Part shown: positions 49,574 to 57,513 of the stretch, piece by piece
Position numbering within the stretch: position 1 is the stretch's first letter
How the letters are laid out: each line of letters starts with the position of its first letter
Origin: Granulicella sapmiensis
GTDB lineage: Bacteria > Acidobacteriota > Terriglobia > Terriglobales > Acidobacteriaceae
Reading direction: 5' to 3'
NCBI GenBank assembly: GCA_026225395.1
Contig: JAMFSR010000035.1
Span: 124,001-188,000, forward strand
DNA: 64,000 bases
Notes under the pieces: model-generated
Seen by the model: only the letters and a program-made list of their open reading frames with translations
Told to the model about the DNA's origin: nothing
Database searches by the model: none
Made by a program: the position numbers and the translations under genes

Positions 49574-50326
49574 TTATTTGAGGATGGCGTTCCAGCAGAA
49601 CTGAATCCCGATCACCGAAAGCCAGAGCGACAGCGCCAACCTGAGATTGCGGTTGGGAATTTTGGGCGCGACCGTTGTGCCGACGATCCCGCCAACCACG
49701 CCACCGATCGCCATCTTCACCAGGATGTCGCCGGCATAATGGCCTCCAATCATGTGGACGCCTGTACCAACCAGCGCGATCGCCAGCCCAAACGCAAGAT
49801 CCGTGCCAACCACCTGCGCGGTTTCAAGATTCGTCATGCCGAGCAACGCAACCGTTCCCAATGCACCTGCGCCGGACGACGAAAATCCAACCTCAGCGCC
49901 AATCGGAAACATAATTAGCCCGATCAGCTTTGAGCGGTCTCGTACGGGACGCGCGATGCCCGATGGCTTGAAGTAACGGTAGATGTGCCAACCGGAGGTG
50001 AAGAGAATGATCGCTCCAAGCGCAAACATCAGCGCCTGGCGTGGCCCATGCGCTGCGACATGTTTGAACGCCACCGATCCGATGATCACACCGGGCAGAC
50101 CACCTAGAAGCATGAACCCAAGCACGCGATAGTTCACCTGCTTGCGGACAATCTGGACCGGCACCACGATCAACTTCACAATCGCCGAGTACGCCAGCGC
50201 CGTGCTCACGGCAATCTCCAGCGGAACATGCAGAAACAGAATCAGCAACGGCGCTGTGATTACTCCGGCGCCCACGCCGGTCAACGCGATCACAACGGCA
50301 ATCACAAAGCCGATAACAAAATCCAT
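49574..50326 (-). CDS. TauE/SafE-family anion exporter/permease (in cys operon)
   Basis: MDFVIGFVIAVVIALTGVGAGVITAPLLILFLHVPLEIAVSTAL; 45-bp gap to cysH. Confidence 0.88.
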   Translation of the reverse strand: MDFVIGFVIAVVIALTGVGAGVITAPLLILFLHVPLEIAVSTALAYSAIVKLIVVPVQIVRKQVNYRVLGFMLLGGLPGVIIGSVAFKHVAAHGPRQALMFALGAIILFTSGWHIYRYFKPSGIARPVRDRSKLIGLIMFPIGAEVGFSSSGAGALGTVALLGMTNLETAQVVGTDLAFGLAIALVGTGVHMIGGHYAGDILVKMAIGGVVGGIVGTTVAPKIPNRNLRLALSLWLSVIGIQFCWNAILK

Positions 50327-50371
50327 TGAGCTACTTTCTTTCTTTGCGCTCCTGCCACCAGCGCCGGTCGC

Positions 50372-51094
50372 TTACGACTGAATGTGAATTCCGCACTCTT
50401 GCTTTTGCCCCGCCCAGCGGCCCGAACGCGGATCGTTCGGATCAAGCGGCAGGCTTGTACACGGCTCACACCCAATGCTTGTGTAGCCCAGATCGTATAG
50501 CTTCAGCAAGGGAATATTGTTCTCCGCTGCATAGGTCCACACGTCTTTCGTGCTCCACTCAGTAAGCGGACTGATCTTGCGAATCTTCTTTCCTGTCGGC
50601 AGCGCGAAGTCATCGACCTCATGCAACGATGCACGACTCTTGGCCTGCTCGCGCCGCAACCCGGTGAACCACATTACGTAGTTCTCCAGCGAAGCGAACA
50701 GCGGCTTCACCTTGCGCATCCCGCAGCACTTGCCCGGATCGGTTTGGTTCAGTATCCCAAACAACGACTCCTGCTCAGCCACAGTTGTTTCCGGAAGCAG
50801 ATTGATGAGCTTCATCCCCCACTCTGCTGCCATGCGGTCGCGATACTCATACACCTCGGCGAAGTGATAGCCAGTATCGAGAAACACCACCGGCACGTCC
50901 GGCAGAATCGTGCGCACCATGTGCAGCAGCACCATGTCTTCAGCCTGGAAGCTGTTGGTGACGACAATGTCGCCTGCGGCGCTCGCGATCTCGCGGGCGA
51001 CAAGCTCCTTCGCTTCACGCACACGTTCCGCAGTGGTTGGCACTCTCAGCGGTTTCGCGATCTCGACCGGCGCTATGTGCAGTTCTTCGCTCAC
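50372..51094 (-). CDS. cysH: Phosphoadenylyl/adenylyl-sulfate reductase, Cys4-cluster type
   Basis: NSFQAEDMVLLHMV, LDTGYHFAEVYEYRD, KCCGMRKVKPL and GCEPCTSLPL. Confidence 0.95.
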   Translation of the reverse strand: MSEELHIAPVEIAKPLRVPTTAERVREAKELVAREIASAAGDIVVTNSFQAEDMVLLHMVRTILPDVPVVFLDTGYHFAEVYEYRDRMAAEWGMKLINLLPETTVAEQESLFGILNQTDPGKCCGMRKVKPLFASLENYVMWFTGLRREQAKSRASLHEVDDFALPTGKKIRKISPLTEWSTKDVWTYAAENNIPLLKLYDLGYTSIGCEPCTSLPLDPNDPRSGRWAGQKQECGIHIQS

Positions 51095-52716
51095 TTCGCT
51101 CTCCGTTCTTCGGCGTCGAGCACATCGGCAACACGCAACTGCTCCACAAGGTCGCTCACCTTCGCCGTCCCGCGAGCGTTCATAACCGCAAAGCCGCCCG
51201 AGGTCAACGCGGCGTCGGCGTCAGCATCCATCGCTTCTTCCAGCAACACGATCAACCCGAGCGCCAGCAGACCGCGCAGCGTCTTCACCGCGGTCACACG
51301 AGTCCGCACCACAGCGGCGCCCTTGTTCAGCAACGCACGCTCAAGATCGGCAACGAGTGAACCATCGACCAGCACCACCGCAGCCTTATGCTCCGGCCCA
51401 GTTTCAGCCGTAGCGACACCACGGCGAATCATGCCCGCAGCCAGCGTCGCATTGGTATGCGGATCGATGAGGATAAAACTTCCCGAGCCGCGGTTCTCCG
51501 CGTAAGGATCGAAGTACAGCGGTCGCGTCAGTTCAATCTCCGCGACACCAATATCGTTCATCCCAAGCGAATTTACGGCTTCTTCCGCCAGTGTCTGAAT
51601 GTTCGTGCGGTAGAGCACCCGCGTCACGCGGCCGGGCAGCGTCTGCGCGCCATGCTTTACCAGATACGGACGATGTGTCTCTAGCCGCTCTGCATCGAAC
51701 CATACCAGCGATGCCTCGATCGATGTCGCGTGCTGCGGCTTCCGATCAACCTCCGAAATCAAATCGCCGCGGCTGATATCCAGCTCGTCTTCTAGCGTCA
51801 ACGCAATCGATAGCGGCGCGCTTGCTTCTTCCAGATCACCATCGAACGTCGTGATTGACGCCACACGGCTCGTGCGACCGGAGGGCAACGCCAGAATCAG
51901 ATCACCCTTGCGCACCGTACCTGCAGAAATCTGCCCGGCAAACCCGCGATAGTTCTGGTCCGGACGAATCACACGCTGCACGGGCAACCGCAAGGGCTGC
52001 GTAGCCACATCAGTCCACACCGGCACATTCTCCAGATGCTCCAGTAGGGTCGGCCCGCTGTACCAGTCCATGCGCGTCGAACGCTCCACGACGTTATCGC
52101 CTTCGAGTGCGCTCACCGGGATCGTCGTCAGGCTCGCACTGCCAAACGAACCTACAAGCTCGCGGAAGTCATGTTCGATCTTGCGGTAAACCTCTTCCGA
52201 AAAATCGACGAGATCCATCTTGTTGATAGCCGCGACAAGATGCCGCGTCCCCAGCAGCGACGCGATATACGCATGACGCCGCGATTGCACCAAAATTCCC
52301 TTGCGCGCGTCGATCAGAATAATGGCAAGATCCGCCGTGGAAGCACCGGTCGCCATATTGCGCGTGTACTGTTCGTGGCCCGGGGTATCGGCGATGATGA
52401 ACTTCCGTCGCTGCGTCGAAAAATAGCGATACGCCACATCAATCGTGATGCCCTGCTCGCGTTCGGCACGCAACCCATCGGTCAATAACGCGAAGTCGAT
52501 CGTCGGCTTGCGTTCGCCAACCTGTGTACCAGTCACAGCGCTAACCTGGTCTTCATACACGTTGCGCGAGTCGTATAGCAGCCGCCCGATCAGCGTCGAC
52601 TTGCCGTCGTCCACGCTGCCCGCCGTGCTGAAGCGCAGCAGGTCCTTCGCGGCCTCAGCTTCGAGGAATTCTTCAATCGCAAAATCAGTTTCCAATTCCA
52701 GCTCCTCGATCGGCAT
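51091..52716 (-). CDS. cysN: Sulfate adenylyltransferase subunit 1 (GTPase) with C-terminal extension
   Basis: LLRFSTAGSVDDGKSTLIGRLLYDSRNVYEDQ; ITIDVAYRYFSTQRRKFIIADTPGHEQYTRNMATGAS. Confidence 0.95.
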   Translation of the reverse strand: MPIEELELETDFAIEEFLEAEAAKDLLRFSTAGSVDDGKSTLIGRLLYDSRNVYEDQVSAVTGTQVGERKPTIDFALLTDGLRAEREQGITIDVAYRYFSTQRRKFIIADTPGHEQYTRNMATGASTADLAIILIDARKGILVQSRRHAYIASLLGTRHLVAAINKMDLVDFSEEVYRKIEHDFRELVGSFGSASLTTIPVSALEGDNVVERSTRMDWYSGPTLLEHLENVPVWTDVATQPLRLPVQRVIRPDQNYRGFAGQISAGTVRKGDLILALPSGRTSRVASITTFDGDLEEASAPLSIALTLEDELDISRGDLISEVDRKPQHATSIEASLVWFDAERLETHRPYLVKHGAQTLPGRVTRVLYRTNIQTLAEEAVNSLGMNDIGVAEIELTRPLYFDPYAENRGSGSFILIDPHTNATLAAGMIRRGVATAETGPEHKAAVVLVDGSLVADLERALLNKGAAVVRTRVTAVKTLRGLLALGLIVLLEEAMDADADAALTSGGFAVMNARGTAKVSDLVEQLRVADVLDAEERRAK

Positions 52717-53673
52717 TTAGAAATACCCCTCGCGCTTCTTGATCTCCATGGAGCCATCTGTGTCGTGGTCGATCACGCGGTTCGCACGCTCCGACGAGCG
52801 GAAGCTCACCAGTTCCGCAATGATCTTGGGAATCGTGTCGGCTTCCGATCGGATCGCGCCCGTGCAAGGGCTGCATCCCAGCGACCGCAGCCGCGACTTC
52901 ACCATCTGCTCTTCACCCGGCAAGCTTTGCACAAAGCTTTGCTCAACGGGGATCAGGCTGTCCGCCCGCACGATCATCTTGCGTTCTTTCGCGAAGTACA
53001 ACGGAACGACCGGAATATCCTCAAGCGCGATGTAGTGCCAGATGTCGAGCTCCGTCCAGTTCGAAAGCGGAAATACGCGAATGCTTTCGCCCGGCGAAAT
53101 ACGCGCGTTGTACAGATTCCAAACCTCAGGCCGCTGGTTTTTCGGGTCCCACTGGCCGGCCTTGTCGCGGAAGGAGAAGATGCGCTCCTTCGCGCGCGAC
53201 TTCTCTTCATCGCGCCGGGCCCCACCAAAGGCTGCATCGAAGCCCCACTCGCGCAGGCCATCGAGCAGTGCGGTTGTCTTCAACAAACCACAGCAACGCT
53301 GTGTTCCCAGCGTTACAGGATTGGCGCCATCGGCCAGTGCCTGCTCATTACGCCACACGCGCAGGTCGAGCCCGAGTTCCTTCGCCATCTGATCGCGGAA
53401 CGCGATCATTTCGTGGAACTTGTAGCCGGTATCGATGTGCAGCAGCGGAAATGGAATCGGCCCTGGAAAGAAAGCCTTCTGTGCCAGCCGCAGCATCACG
53501 CTGGAGTCCTTGCCAATCGAGTACAGCATCACTGGCTTCTGGAACTCAGCCGCTACCTCGCGGAAGATCTGGATGCTCTCGGCCTCCAGCAACTTCAAAT
53601 GACTCAACCGCTTGCCGGTTGAGTCAGGGATCGCCGCTTCGCTGCTCGGCTCGAAACTGGATAATGTCGCCAT
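52717..53673 (-). CDS. cysD: Sulfate adenylyltransferase subunit 2
   Basis: [64 protein letters not shown]; probable start MATLSS at 53673, leaving a 110-bp leader after the Cys-rich ORF. Confidence 0.96.
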
Positions 53674-53717: not shown

Positions 53718-53750
53718 CAAAACCCACTCATCCGATGTCGGAAGGTGGGT
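53718..53750 (-). terminator. Attenuator-type hairpin between Cys-rich leader ORF and cysD
   Basis: Reverse strand ACCCAC-ct-TCCGA-ca-TCGGA-tga-GTGGGT followed by TTTGTATTTG. Confidence 0.75.
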
Positions 53751-53783
53751 GCTTGACTCTTGATTGTCGTGATCGGCTAAAAG

Positions 53784-53870
53784 CTATCGACAAATGCACC
53801 CGCTGGAATATGCCAGACAGCAACAGCAGTTGCAGTTCAACACACACGCGCAGATGCGACAATTTGCCAT
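53784..53870 (-). CDS. Cysteine-rich leader peptide upstream of cysDNH: MANCRICACVLNCNCCCCLAYSSGCICR
   Basis: ATG GCA AAT TGT CGC ATC TGC GCG TGT GTG TTG AAC TGC AAC TGC TGT TGC TGT CTG GCA TAT TCC AGC GGG TGC ATT TGT CGA TAG; 10 Cys/28 with a CCCC run; below the ORF-track length cutoff. Confidence 0.8.
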   Translation of the reverse strand: MANCRICACVLNCNCCCCLAYSSGCICR

Positions 53871-53924: not shown

Positions 53925-53953
53925 TTGACACTGCCCTTCGTTACATTTACGTT
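53925..53953 (+). promoter_or_regulatory. Predicted sigma70-like promoter TTGACA-N17-TACGTT for the + strand leader transcript
   Basis: -35 TTGACA 53925-53930, 17-nt spacer, -10 TACGTT 53948-53953; places the TSS a few nt from the ATG at 53964. Confidence 0.6.
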
Positions 53954-53963
53954 ACATCCAGTT

Positions 53964-54065
53964 ATGAATTCGTTTAACTCCATCGCCTATCGCGCCTGTT
54001 GCATGTGTTCAACGCAACTGTGTTGCCGCGTCGGTGCGAGTTCCTCCATGATCCTGCCTTCCTGA
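53964..54065 (+). CDS. Cysteine-containing leader peptide upstream of TonB receptor: MNSFNSIAYRACCMCSTQLCCRVGASSSMILPS
   Basis: 34-codon ORF with CCMC and CC clusters, near-leaderless relative to the predicted promoter, followed by a hairpin. Confidence 0.7.
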   Translation: MNSFNSIAYRACCMCSTQLCCRVGASSSMILPS

Positions 54066-54100
54066 TACTCCTCAGAAGAAGACATCATCGGATTCCCCTC

Positions 54101-54126
54101 AAACCCACGCCAACCGCGTGGGTTTT
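54101..54126 (+). terminator. Attenuator-type hairpin AAACCCACGC-CAACC-GCGTGGGTTT-T
   Basis: 10-bp perfect stem, 5-nt loop, short T-run; between the leader ORF and the receptor gene. Confidence 0.7.
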
Positions 54127-54154: not shown

Positions 54155-54217
54155 ATGAATCGTTTCTCCAACCCGCGAAACTGCCCGCAGACCTCAACAG
54201 CCATGAGCTGTTGTTGA
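54155..54217 (+). CDS. Possible second short leader ORF ending in CC: MNRFSNPRNCPQTSTAMSCC
   Basis: ORF terminates TGT TGT TGA; hairpin CAACAGC-CATGA-GCTGTTG (54195-54213) overlaps the terminal Cys codons. Confidence 0.4.
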   Translation: MNRFSNPRNCPQTSTAMSCC

Positions 54218-54318
54218 GTCGTGAGCCCGCACGCCTTCGTCTTCTCCCTCTTGTTTTCAACTTTCAACCAGTAATGCGCAACCGTTCGCGTCCTTTGTTT
54301 CATCTTCAGGAGATTGTC

Positions 54319-57300
54319 TTGTCTACGCCGTTTCGTTCGCTCGCCCTTGCCGCTTTAGCCGTTTTCACCTCTGCCACTCTTTCCGCCCAGGTCGTCAACG
54401 GCACTATCTCCGGCACCGTCACTGACCCCAGTGGTGCGCTCGTCCCCCACGCTCACGTGCTCGTCCACAACGACGACACAGGCGTCCAGCGCACATTAAC
54501 TACCGGCAACGAAGGCACCTTCGCCGCACCGGCAATCCCTATCGGCTTCTACACGGTCACGGCAGAATCCCCCAGCTTTGCCGCCTACAAGCGCACTGGG
54601 ATATCGCTTACCGTTGGCCAGACGCTCAATCTCACGCTCGCGCTGTCTCTCTCTGGTTCGGACACCGTCACCGTCACGGACGTTCCCTCCACCGTGAACA
54701 CCTCTGTCGACCAGACCTCCGGCCTTGTCGATTCGCGACAGGTGAAAGAGCTTCCGCTCAACGGCCGCAGCTACGATCAGCTCCTCCAGCTCAATCCCGG
54801 CGTAGTCAACTACACCAACCAGCGCTCCGGCAGCGTTGGCACATCGAACTCCTCGGTCGGCAGCATGTTCTCCATCTCCGGCCGCCGCCCGCAGGACAAT
54901 CTCTTCCTGCTCAACGGCATCGAGTACACCGGCGCCTCGCTCATCAACACCACCCCCGGCGGCACCTCCGGCCAGCTGCTCGGCATAGATGGCATTCACG
55001 AGTTCAACGTCGTCACCGACACCTACTCCGCCTCCTACGGCAAACGCGACGGCGCACAGATATCCATCGCCACCACCGGCGGCACCAACAAGCTCCACGG
55101 CAGCGTCTACGACTTCGAGCGCAACAGCTTCTTCGACGCCCGTAACTACTTCGACGGCGCCCGGATCCCTGAGTTCCAGCGCGACAACTACGGCGCGGCC
55201 CTCGGTGGCCCCATCAAAAAGGACAAGCTCTTTCTCTTCGCCAACTACGAAGGCTACCGCCAGAACCTCGGTGAATCCATCGCCGCTCTCGTTCCTGACG
55301 CTACTTCGCGCGCCCACGCTGTCGCCAGCGTCCAGCCACTTCTCAACCTCTGGCCTGTTGCCAACGGCCCCGAAAGCGCCACGGCGGCCGGAGTCGCGCT
55401 CTACACCGGTTCAGCCCCTCAGCACATTCGCGAAGACTTCGGCACGAGCCGCTTCGACTACAACATCAACCAGAACGACACCTTCAACACCATTTACACC
55501 ATCGACGACTCCTTCGCGTCCAGCCCCTCCGCCGATCCGTTCTCCTACGTCAATGAATCCTTGCGCGAACAGGTTCTCAGCGCACAGGAGCAGCATGTCT
55601 TCTCTCCGCGCCTCATCAACGTAGCCCGCGTCGGTTTCTCCCGGTCCAAGTTTTATTTCTACGGATACGTCCCCGCCGCCGAGCAAGCTCTCGCACCGTC
55701 GGTTCGCCCCGGCATACCCACCTATGCCATCGTCATCGCCGGTTCAACAGCTTCGAACGGCCCGGCATCCATCGCCACCGCAGGCGCCAATGTCGGTTCT
55801 AACAACGGCATCACCCGCAACATCTACACCTTCGACGACCACGCCTACTACACCATCGGCAAGCACACCTTCCAGGCAGGCATCTGGCTACAGCGCCTGC
55901 AGTCCAACGACAACCTCGCGCAGGATCAGTACGGTCAGGCCTCCTTCGCTTCGGTAGCAACCTTCCTTACGGGAACCATCAAGACCTTCACCTACGCACC
56001 CGCGACCACCGAGCTCAACTGGCACACGCTCTTCGCCGACGCCTTCATCGAGGACGTCTACCACATCACTCCTCGCCTCCAGATCCGCGCCGGCTTCCGT
56101 TCAGAATCCTCCACCGGTTGGAGCGAAGCCCACGACCGCTCCTCCGTTTACACCTTCAACTCCGCCGGCGTCATCTCCACCAACCCCACTCCCGGCCTCT
56201 CGAACGCCCTCACCAACAACCACGGCCTCTTCCTGCCCGAGCCCCGTCTCGGCATCGCCTGGAACGTCTTCGGCAACGGTCGCACCAGCGTCACGTCCGG
56301 CGTGGGCTTCCACCACTCGCTCCTCGACGCGCTCGACTACCGCCTCGATCAAGCAGCTCCCTACAACACCGTCTACTCCTACTCCGGCACCACAGTGGCT
56401 AATCCCACCAGCGGCACCGGCCTCGTTTCGCCCTCCACCATCGACACCGGCATCCGCACCCCCACGCTGTTATCCTACGACCTAAAAATCGAGCAACAGC
56501 TCGCTCCCGCCACCGCTATCAGCATTGGCTACAGCGGCTCCCACAGCTACCACCAGATCATGAACGGCGATCTCAACGAGCCCGCCTACACTCTCGTCAA
56601 CGGCTCCGTCTTCTACCCGGCCGCCGGAACTCCCGCTGTGCCCGCAGCCCCCATCAAGGCCAACCCCGCTGTCGCCAACACCACCTCCTGGTGGTCCGGC
56701 GCTTCCGGCAACTACAACGCCCTCATCGTCGACTTCCGCCACGACCTCTCACACGGCCTACAGTTCCGCGCCAACTATACCTGGTCCAAGAACCTCGACG
56801 ACGGCTCAGCCTGGAACACCTCCGTCTCCGCCAACACGCCCGCCTTCGTCGAAGTTCCTTCGCTCCCTCACCTCGACTACGGCCCCGCGGCTACGGACAT
56901 CCGTCAGCTCGCAGCCTTCAACACCAGCTACGATCTTCCTTTCGGCGCAGGTAGGGAATTCTTATCGAGCACCAATCACGTTGTCAGCCACGTCATCTCT
57001 GGCTGGACTCTCTCCTCCATCGCTAACCTCGCTACCGGCACCCCCTTCAGCCCGCAACTCGGCTACAACCCCACCGGCTCCGGCGATAGCCGCAACCCAG
57101 TCCGTCCCGACGTCAACCCGGGCTTCACCGGCTCGCTGTACAACCACGGCAGCACAGCCTCGAAGGTCACCCAGTACTTCAACCCAGCAAAGTTCTCCGC
57201 ACCCAAGGCTGGCTACGTGGGCGACTCCGGTCGCGACAACCTCGTCGGTCCAGCCTTTGCCGACTGGGATCTTTCGCTCCTGAAGTCCACCCAGATCACC

Positions 57301-57513
57301 GAAGCCGCTCGCCTGCAGTTCCGCGCCGAGTTCTTCAATGTCCTCAACCACACCAACCTCGGCCTTCCCAACGAGGTCGTTTACTCCAACGGCCCCACGC
57401 AAGGCACACTCACCAGCCAGAACACGGCCGCTGCGCTCGGCTCACCAGGCAACATCACCTCCACCGCCAATACCAGCCGCCAAATCCAGCTGGGCTTGAA
57501 GCTTCTCTTCTAA
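54319..57513 (+). CDS. TonB-dependent receptor with N-terminal carboxypeptidase-regulatory-like domain (Oar-like)
   Basis: TTG start after AGGAG RBS giving LSTPFRSLALAALAVFTSATLSAQVVNGTISGTVTDPSGALVPHAHVLV; plug region VKELPLNGRSYDQLLQLNPGVV; C-terminal QIQLGLKLLF. The upstream in-frame ATG at 54118 lies inside the hairpin and is unlikely to be used. Confidence 0.9.
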   Translation: MSTPFRSLALAALAVFTSATLSAQVVNGTISGTVTDPSGALVPHAHVLVHNDDTGVQRTLTTGNEGTFAAPAIPIGFYTVTAESPSFAAYKRTGISLTVGQTLNLTLALSLSGSDTVTVTDVPSTVNTSVDQTSGLVDSRQVKELPLNGRSYDQLLQLNPGVVNYTNQRSGSVGTSNSSVGSMFSISGRRPQDNLFLLNGIEYTGASLINTTPGGTSGQLLGIDGIHEFNVVTDTYSASYGKRDGAQISIATTGGTNKLHGSVYDFERNSFFDARNYFDGARIPEFQRDNYGAALGGPIKKDKLFLFANYEGYRQNLGESIAALVPDATSRAHAVASVQPLLNLWPVANGPESATAAGVALYTGSAPQHIREDFGTSRFDYNINQNDTFNTIYTIDDSFASSPSADPFSYVNESLREQVLSAQEQHVFSPRLINVARVGFSRSKFYFYGYVPAAEQALAPSVRPGIPTYAIVIAGSTASNGPASIATAGANVGSNNGITRNIYTFDDHAYYTIGKHTFQAGIWLQRLQSNDNLAQDQYGQASFASVATFLTGTIKTFTYAPATTELNWHTLFADAFIEDVYHITPRLQIRAGFRSESSTGWSEAHDRSSVYTFNSAGVISTNPTPGLSNALTNNHGLFLPEPRLGIAWNVFGNGRTSVTSGVGFHHSLLDALDYRLDQAAPYNTVYSYSGTTVANPTSGTGLVSPSTIDTGIRTPTLLSYDLKIEQQLAPATAISIGYSGSHSYHQIMNGDLNEPAYTLVNGSVFYPAAGTPAVPAAPIKANPAVANTTSWWSGASGNYNALIVDFRHDLSHGLQFRANYTWSKNLDDGSAWNTSVSANTPAFVEVPSLPHLDYGPAATDIRQLAAFNTSYDLPFGAGREFLSSTNHVVSHVISGWTLSSIANLATGTPFSPQLGYNPTGSGDSRNPVRPDVNPGFTGSLYNHGSTASKVTQYFNPAKFSAPKAGYVGDSGRDNLVGPAFADWDLSLLKSTQITEAARLQFRAEFFNVLNHTNLGLPNEVVYSNGPTQGTLTSQNTAAALGSPGNITSTANTSRQIQLGLKLLF

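Follow-up and report, generated by a model that had tools for sequence, protein, structure and literature searches.

Cys-rich leaders and a probable cysteine-responsive attenuator upstream of a TonB-dependent receptor gene in Granulicella sapmiensis

Attenuators built on cysteine (Cys) codons have already been described from mycobacteria and from the region preceding cysS. The mycobacterial examples are leaderless polycysteine short open reading frames (ORFs) (Canestrari et al. 2020), which PMC9031893 and PMC13236596 present as cysteine responsive and as attenuating downstream translation. In the uORFC-8-2 motif upstream of cysS, a short ORF contains tandem Cys codons and an intrinsic terminator comes after it; transcription attenuation has been proposed for this motif (PMC8632094). 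In Acidobacteria, a 2010 survey left the predicted attenuators of the phylum almost wholly without assigned function (PMC2965389). Here, we describe a region of Granulicella sapmiensis contig JAMFSR010000035.1 in which a Cys-rich leader ORF and a terminator-like hairpin precede the gene for an Oar-like TonB-dependent receptor. We read this region as a cysteine-responsive, ribosome-mediated attenuator of a TonB-dependent outer-membrane transporter, with a probability of about 0.85. Positions refer to the window, the whole 64,000-nucleotide (nt) stretch that was analyzed.

The locus resembles the mycobacterial polycysteine ORFs in placing a short ORF, predicted to be nearly leaderless and with its Cys codons clustered, ahead of sulfur genes. 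It differs from them in its phylum, its intrinsic terminator and candidate antiterminator, its tandem leaders, and its TonB-dependent transporter, and we do not claim sequence homology. The uORFC-8-2 motif precedes the gene for cysteinyl-tRNA synthetase and is a defined two-stem RNA with conserved Cys codon positions, whereas leader length and Cys positions vary here and the genes serve transport and sulfate assimilation. With attenuators of the trp and his type the locus shares a leader peptide enriched in the amino acid that is regulated and, as proposed here, alternative antiterminator and terminator structures, but its start is predicted to be leaderless, the amino acid is cysteine, and we identified no protector hairpin. 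CruR (DUF2946), the upstream ORF of Bordetella bfrG, also contains Cys residues, and it regulates a TonB-dependent transporter (PMC9426467). However, CruR is a 145-residue exported protein with a CXXC copper sensor, a RAPP arrest motif, and Rho-dependent action, none of which is present here. The mycobacterial ORFs and uORFC-8-2 are the closest systems in principle, and CruR is set apart because the leader lacks the features of that family. What is new is the phylum, the combination of a leaderless ORF with a terminator, the tandem form, and the presumed control of a TonB-dependent transporter. Our literature searches, which had most subscription papers outside their coverage, returned no paper describing a Cys attenuator from Acidobacteria.

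The elements that carry this reading are as follows.

53925..53953, + strand: promoter TTGACA-N17-TACGTT, read directly (TTGACA at 53925-53930, TACGTT at 53948-53953).
53964..54065, + strand: distal Cys-rich leader ORF of 33 amino acids, MNSFNSIAYRACCMCSTQLCCRVGASSSMILPS, read directly; counterparts in orthologs.
54028..54035, + strand: candidate antiterminator segment GCGTCGGT; kept in orthologs, with nascent pairing probability as further evidence.
54101..54126, + strand: intrinsic-terminator-like perfect 10-bp hairpin AAACCCACGC-CAACC-GCGTGGGTTT (54101-54125) and its T run; fold z score -3.9, equivalents in relatives.
54308..54312, + strand: receptor Shine-Dalgarno sequence AGGAG, read from the sequence.
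54319..57513, + strand: TonB-dependent receptor, Oar-like, the presumed regulated gene; Pfam CarboxypepD_reg, Plug, and OMP_b-brl_4, and predicted fold.

An earlier note on this DNA had reported the promoter, the Cys-rich ORF, the candidate antiterminator, and the hairpin, and direct reading found each of them in place. The note had also named TTG 54319 as the likely receptor start, which agrees with the AGGAG just upstream and with the TTG start of several orthologs.

We gathered receptor relatives from 28 genus-level and 399 family-level genomes, among them Granulicella paludicola and Bryocella elongata, and read 80 loci, mostly of 18 kb. In the receptor tree, 75 Acidobacteriaceae receptors formed one clade with a support of 1.0. 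A Cys-cluster leader ORF stood upstream of 74 of these 75 receptors, whereas in the outgroup only 1 of 18 receptors had one (Fisher 2e-16). The earlier note had named the loss of the ORF or of its Cys codons from orthologous intergenic regions as the finding that would speak against it, and no such pattern turned up. The significance of the window elements comes from this conservation and not from the window sequence alone. The sole clade member without a Cys leader, L185, lies directly behind an ORF that by eye resembles an Rrf2-type regulator. L188, another copy of the receptor in the genome of L185, does have Cys leaders. We considered L190 as a paralog and rejected this assignment, as the tree places it inside the clade and it has a leader. 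According to blast maps, the receptor gene may diverge from cysD, precede cysD-cysN-cysH-tauE, follow yeiH, or have none of these genes in the locus that was read; cysD-cysN-cysH-tauE or yeiH were neighbors in most loci. These contexts are intermixed in the receptor tree and the leader is kept in each, which shows that the leader goes with the receptor and not with its neighbors.

The promoter geometry is also recurrent. The pattern TTGACN-N17-TANNNT occurred 5 to 12 nt upstream of the Cys-ORF start in 22 of 70 loci, versus 0.02 expected from shuffled upstream DNA, and the clearest examples began with ATG or GTG. Because the promoter lies so close to the leader start, these leaders are predicted to be essentially leaderless, as the mycobacterial ORFs are. 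In the window, ATG 53964 is 10 nt downstream of the -10 hexamer and is the only start codon in the 64 kb with a TTGAC-type promoter of that geometry 4 to 13 nt upstream. The predicted transcription start is about 4 nt before the ATG, which would make the distal leader nearly leaderless, as the note had proposed. This leader has Cys at residues 12, 13, 15, 20, and 21 and ends with a stop codon at 54063-54065. Leaders range from 20 to 33 amino acids, and the number and spacing of their Cys residues vary freely. The Cys codons in the receptor-clade leaders are TGT and TGC in a ratio of 172:54, versus 16:36 in the genes of the window. An Rfam scan of the window at the gathering score matched no family in this region; its only hit was a tRNA at 23048-23119.

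The hairpin at 54101-54125 has a folding energy of -16.2 kcal/mol, and intrinsic terminators follow the distal leaders in many relatives, which supports a terminator in the window. In the relatives that group with the window, the terminator takes the form ACCCACGC...GCGTGGGT. The segment GCGTCGGT is complementary to the 5' arm ACCCACGC of the window hairpin at 7 of 8 positions. It is translated as R-V-G in the window and L008 but as A-S-V in L144, L014, L165, and L168, and the perfect-match version GCGTGGG is read as A-W-V in L169 and L199. Because the segment is kept in two different reading frames, the constraint is on the RNA and not on the protein. In L159, a shortening is matched on both strands of the pairing (GCGTCGT and ACCACGC). 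MAFFT misplaced the window terminator arm in alignment A1, so we counted the antiterminator by pairwise duplexes; over 18 leaders, the pairing was stronger than in shuffles, with a combined z score of -3.7. When nascent window RNA was folded without the 3' arm, the antiterminator had a mean pair probability of 0.87 versus 0.50 for shuffled segments, 3% of which were as high, and the value was at least 0.75 in seven of nine sequences. In five relatives (L144, L014, L152, L165, and L168), the last paired position coincides with the stop codon of the leader; a ribosome at the stop codon would therefore cover the antiterminator segment there.

The region has a short ORF with clustered codons for a single amino acid and an intrinsic terminator between leader and gene. 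From these elements, their conservation, the genomic context, and the pairing potential of the RNA, we infer that the leader is translated and that stalling and termination respond to cysteine. RNA polymerase would begin some 4 nt ahead of ATG 53964, with a ribosome loading at once on the nearly leaderless message. When Cys-tRNA is scarce, the ribosome would stall at the first Cys cluster (C12, C13, and C15; 53997-54008), 19 nt before GCGTCGGT. In this stalled state, GCGTCGGT could pair with the emerging ACCCACGC arm, block the terminator at 54101-54125, and allow transcription of the receptor gene. With plentiful cysteine, the ribosome would move through, the more stable terminator would form, and transcription would end.

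Several observations weigh against this reading. The Cys cluster of the window ORF is not significant by itself, since 11.5% of shuffles equal it, and the T run of the window terminator has four T residues only (through 54126). The antiterminator proposed in the earlier note retains its complementarity, its conservation, and its high nascent probability, but its duplex energy in the window alone is not significant (34% of shuffles are as good) and the structure is not predicted in nascent RNA of L008 or L152. Once the 3' arm is included, the terminator prevails outright at equilibrium. The window leader also extends 27 nt beyond GCGTCGGT, and so a ribosome that has reached its stop codon would not mask the segment in the classical way, unlike in L144 or L165. 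Loci of the yeiH type have no distal terminator, so the mechanism there may differ. Finally, the substrate of the receptor is assigned from context.

These yeiH-type loci bring in a second leader, which the earlier note missed although it had found the distal one. In the window, this proximal leader is represented by two features.

54155..54217, + strand: second, proximal Cys leader MNRFSNPRNCPQTSTAMSCC, ending S-C-C-stop; read from the sequence, with a near-identical element in L159.
54193..54218, + strand: hairpin CTCAACAGCCATGAGCTGTTGTTGAG, which contains both Cys codons at the end of the proximal leader; read from the sequence, with the same element in L159.

The L159 element is 26 nt long and near identical, with the peptide end MRCC and a stop. 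At least two Cys ORFs stood upstream of the receptor in 41 of the 75 clade members. The yeiH-type loci have the proximal leader only, which overlaps the yeiH stop codon in several of them, and a conserved hairpin in which the Cys codons make up the 5' strand. Over 17 such loci, 95.8% of the alignment cells were paired, with six two-sided changes and a score reached by 0 of 500 shuffles. The spacer after this leader is C rich and G poor (0.36 C, 0.18 G). In the window, the proximal leader with its Cys codons in a hairpin might be a further check before the receptor gene, perhaps through Rho-dependent termination or translational control. In some yeiH-type loci, e.g., L122, L134, and L148, a second recurrent hairpin follows the Cys-codon hairpin, upstream of the receptor Shine-Dalgarno sequence. 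The yeiH family PF03601 is absent from the source genome.

It is possible, although we find it doubtful, that the Cys leaders act on translation, like those of mycobacteria, or by way of Rho, with stalling opening the receptor start or blocking Rho loading and the 54101 hairpin being incidental or a backup. The mycobacterial leaders, as presented in the papers cited above, are also leaderless and attenuate downstream translation, and the hairpin and spacer of the yeiH-type loci fit such a mode. However, clear intrinsic terminators follow the distal leaders of many relatives, with a complementary segment in the leader, and the window terminator lies about 190 nt upstream of the receptor start.

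The receptor has the plug domain and outer-membrane beta barrel of a TonB-dependent transporter. Its predicted fold (predicted local distance difference test score of 66, moderate) matches the TonB-dependent transporters FusA, YddB, and Cir (Foldseek, ~1e-26 or better). Acidobacterial genomes contain many Oar-like TonB-dependent receptors without assigned substrates, often with about 20 matches per genome, and a leader peptide that reveals the sensed amino acid is a rare clue to receptor role from sequence only. The leader appears to mark this receptor as part of the sulfur-starvation response, and regulation and context together suggest that it imports a sulfur compound. If this is true, one receptor clade gains a testable substrate class.

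Cys leaders of the same type occur elsewhere in the source genome (G000). At L067 (contig C2, about 154941, - strand), the Cys leader MTYTVSNSILTCCCRCCCCGRAR and a terminator precede a 1-Cys peroxiredoxin gene, and the leader is kept in 14 of 15 orthologs. We found it through genome-wide scans for Cys-cluster patterns (TGYTGYNNNTGYTGY and TGYTGYTGY), in which out-of-frame repeats dominated. The 1-Cys peroxiredoxin gene lsfA is increased more than 45-fold in sulfur-starved Pseudomonas (PMC12581299). At L263 (contig C7, about 104.8-105.2 kb, - strand), the leaderless Cys leader MKFSLGFPLIFSSAACCLCPCTWAHSVAV and a terminator precede the sulfite reductase gene, and most orthologs retain a Cys leader; Cys leaders also occur in the order-level relatives L299-L301. 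These leaders and the cysD-cysN-cysH-tauE and yeiH contexts support the sulfur assignment made in the earlier note. We lean toward a cysteine-attenuator regulon of Acidobacteriaceae that covers sulfate activation and reduction, sulfite reductase, and 1-Cys peroxiredoxin. Its outer-membrane member would be a dedicated TonB-dependent receptor for sulfur compounds, governed by two successive Cys leaders, of which the first would be a leaderless transcription attenuator and the second a receptor-near leader with its Cys codons in a conserved hairpin. Such a regulon would be an addition to the phylum and would mean that Cys leaders of the leaderless kind either originated or were retained at a great distance from mycobacteria, here coupled to intrinsic terminators.

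We consider it unlikely that the receptor instead serves protein export, like Oar of Myxococcus, or carbohydrate or iron uptake, and is merely coregulated with sulfur metabolism. Its domains are Oar-like, Oar is required for PopC secretion (PMC6434023), and the nearest folds are diverse TonB-dependent transporters. Against this, the leader stays with the receptor clade although the context changes several times, other receptors of the family lack it, and cysD-cysN-cysH-tauE or yeiH adjoin the receptor in most loci.

Metal sensing in the manner of CruR/CutF is far less probable; in that case the nascent Cys-rich peptide would bind copper or another metal, alter stalling, and control a TonB-dependent metal transporter. 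Metal genes are commonly preceded by CutF-like leaders (PMC9973294). However, six leaders compared with Pfam gave no match, none has a RAPP-type end, their 20 to 33 amino acids contrast with the 145 residues of Bp2923, and the free variation in Cys number and spacing, the sulfate-assimilation neighbors, and the leaders before sulfite reductase and 1-Cys peroxiredoxin also speak against metal sensing. We rejected CruR-type copper sensing in particular, as the 33-residue window leader lacks the DUF2946-type CXXC and RAPP features and has no Pfam match. A chance pairing of a short Cys-rich ORF with an ordinary bidirectional terminator, for which the shuffle result of the window ORF might speak, has a negligible probability and is refuted by the conservation of the leader and the recurrence of the promoter geometry.

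On the other side of the intergenic region, the sulfate assimilation operon has its own leader.

49574..53667, - strand: cysD, cysN, cysH-type 3'-phosphoadenosine-5'-phosphosulfate reductase, and TauE/SafE operon (sulfate assimilation); Pfam.
53719..53751, edges approximate, - strand: terminator-like hairpin ACCCAC...GTGGGTTTT between the divergent leader and cysD; read from the sequence.
53784..53870, - strand: divergent, very Cys-rich leader MANCRICACVLNCNCCCCLAYSSGCICR of the cysD operon; read from the sequence.

This cysD-operon leader has Cys-rich counterparts in L144, L146, L159, and L154.
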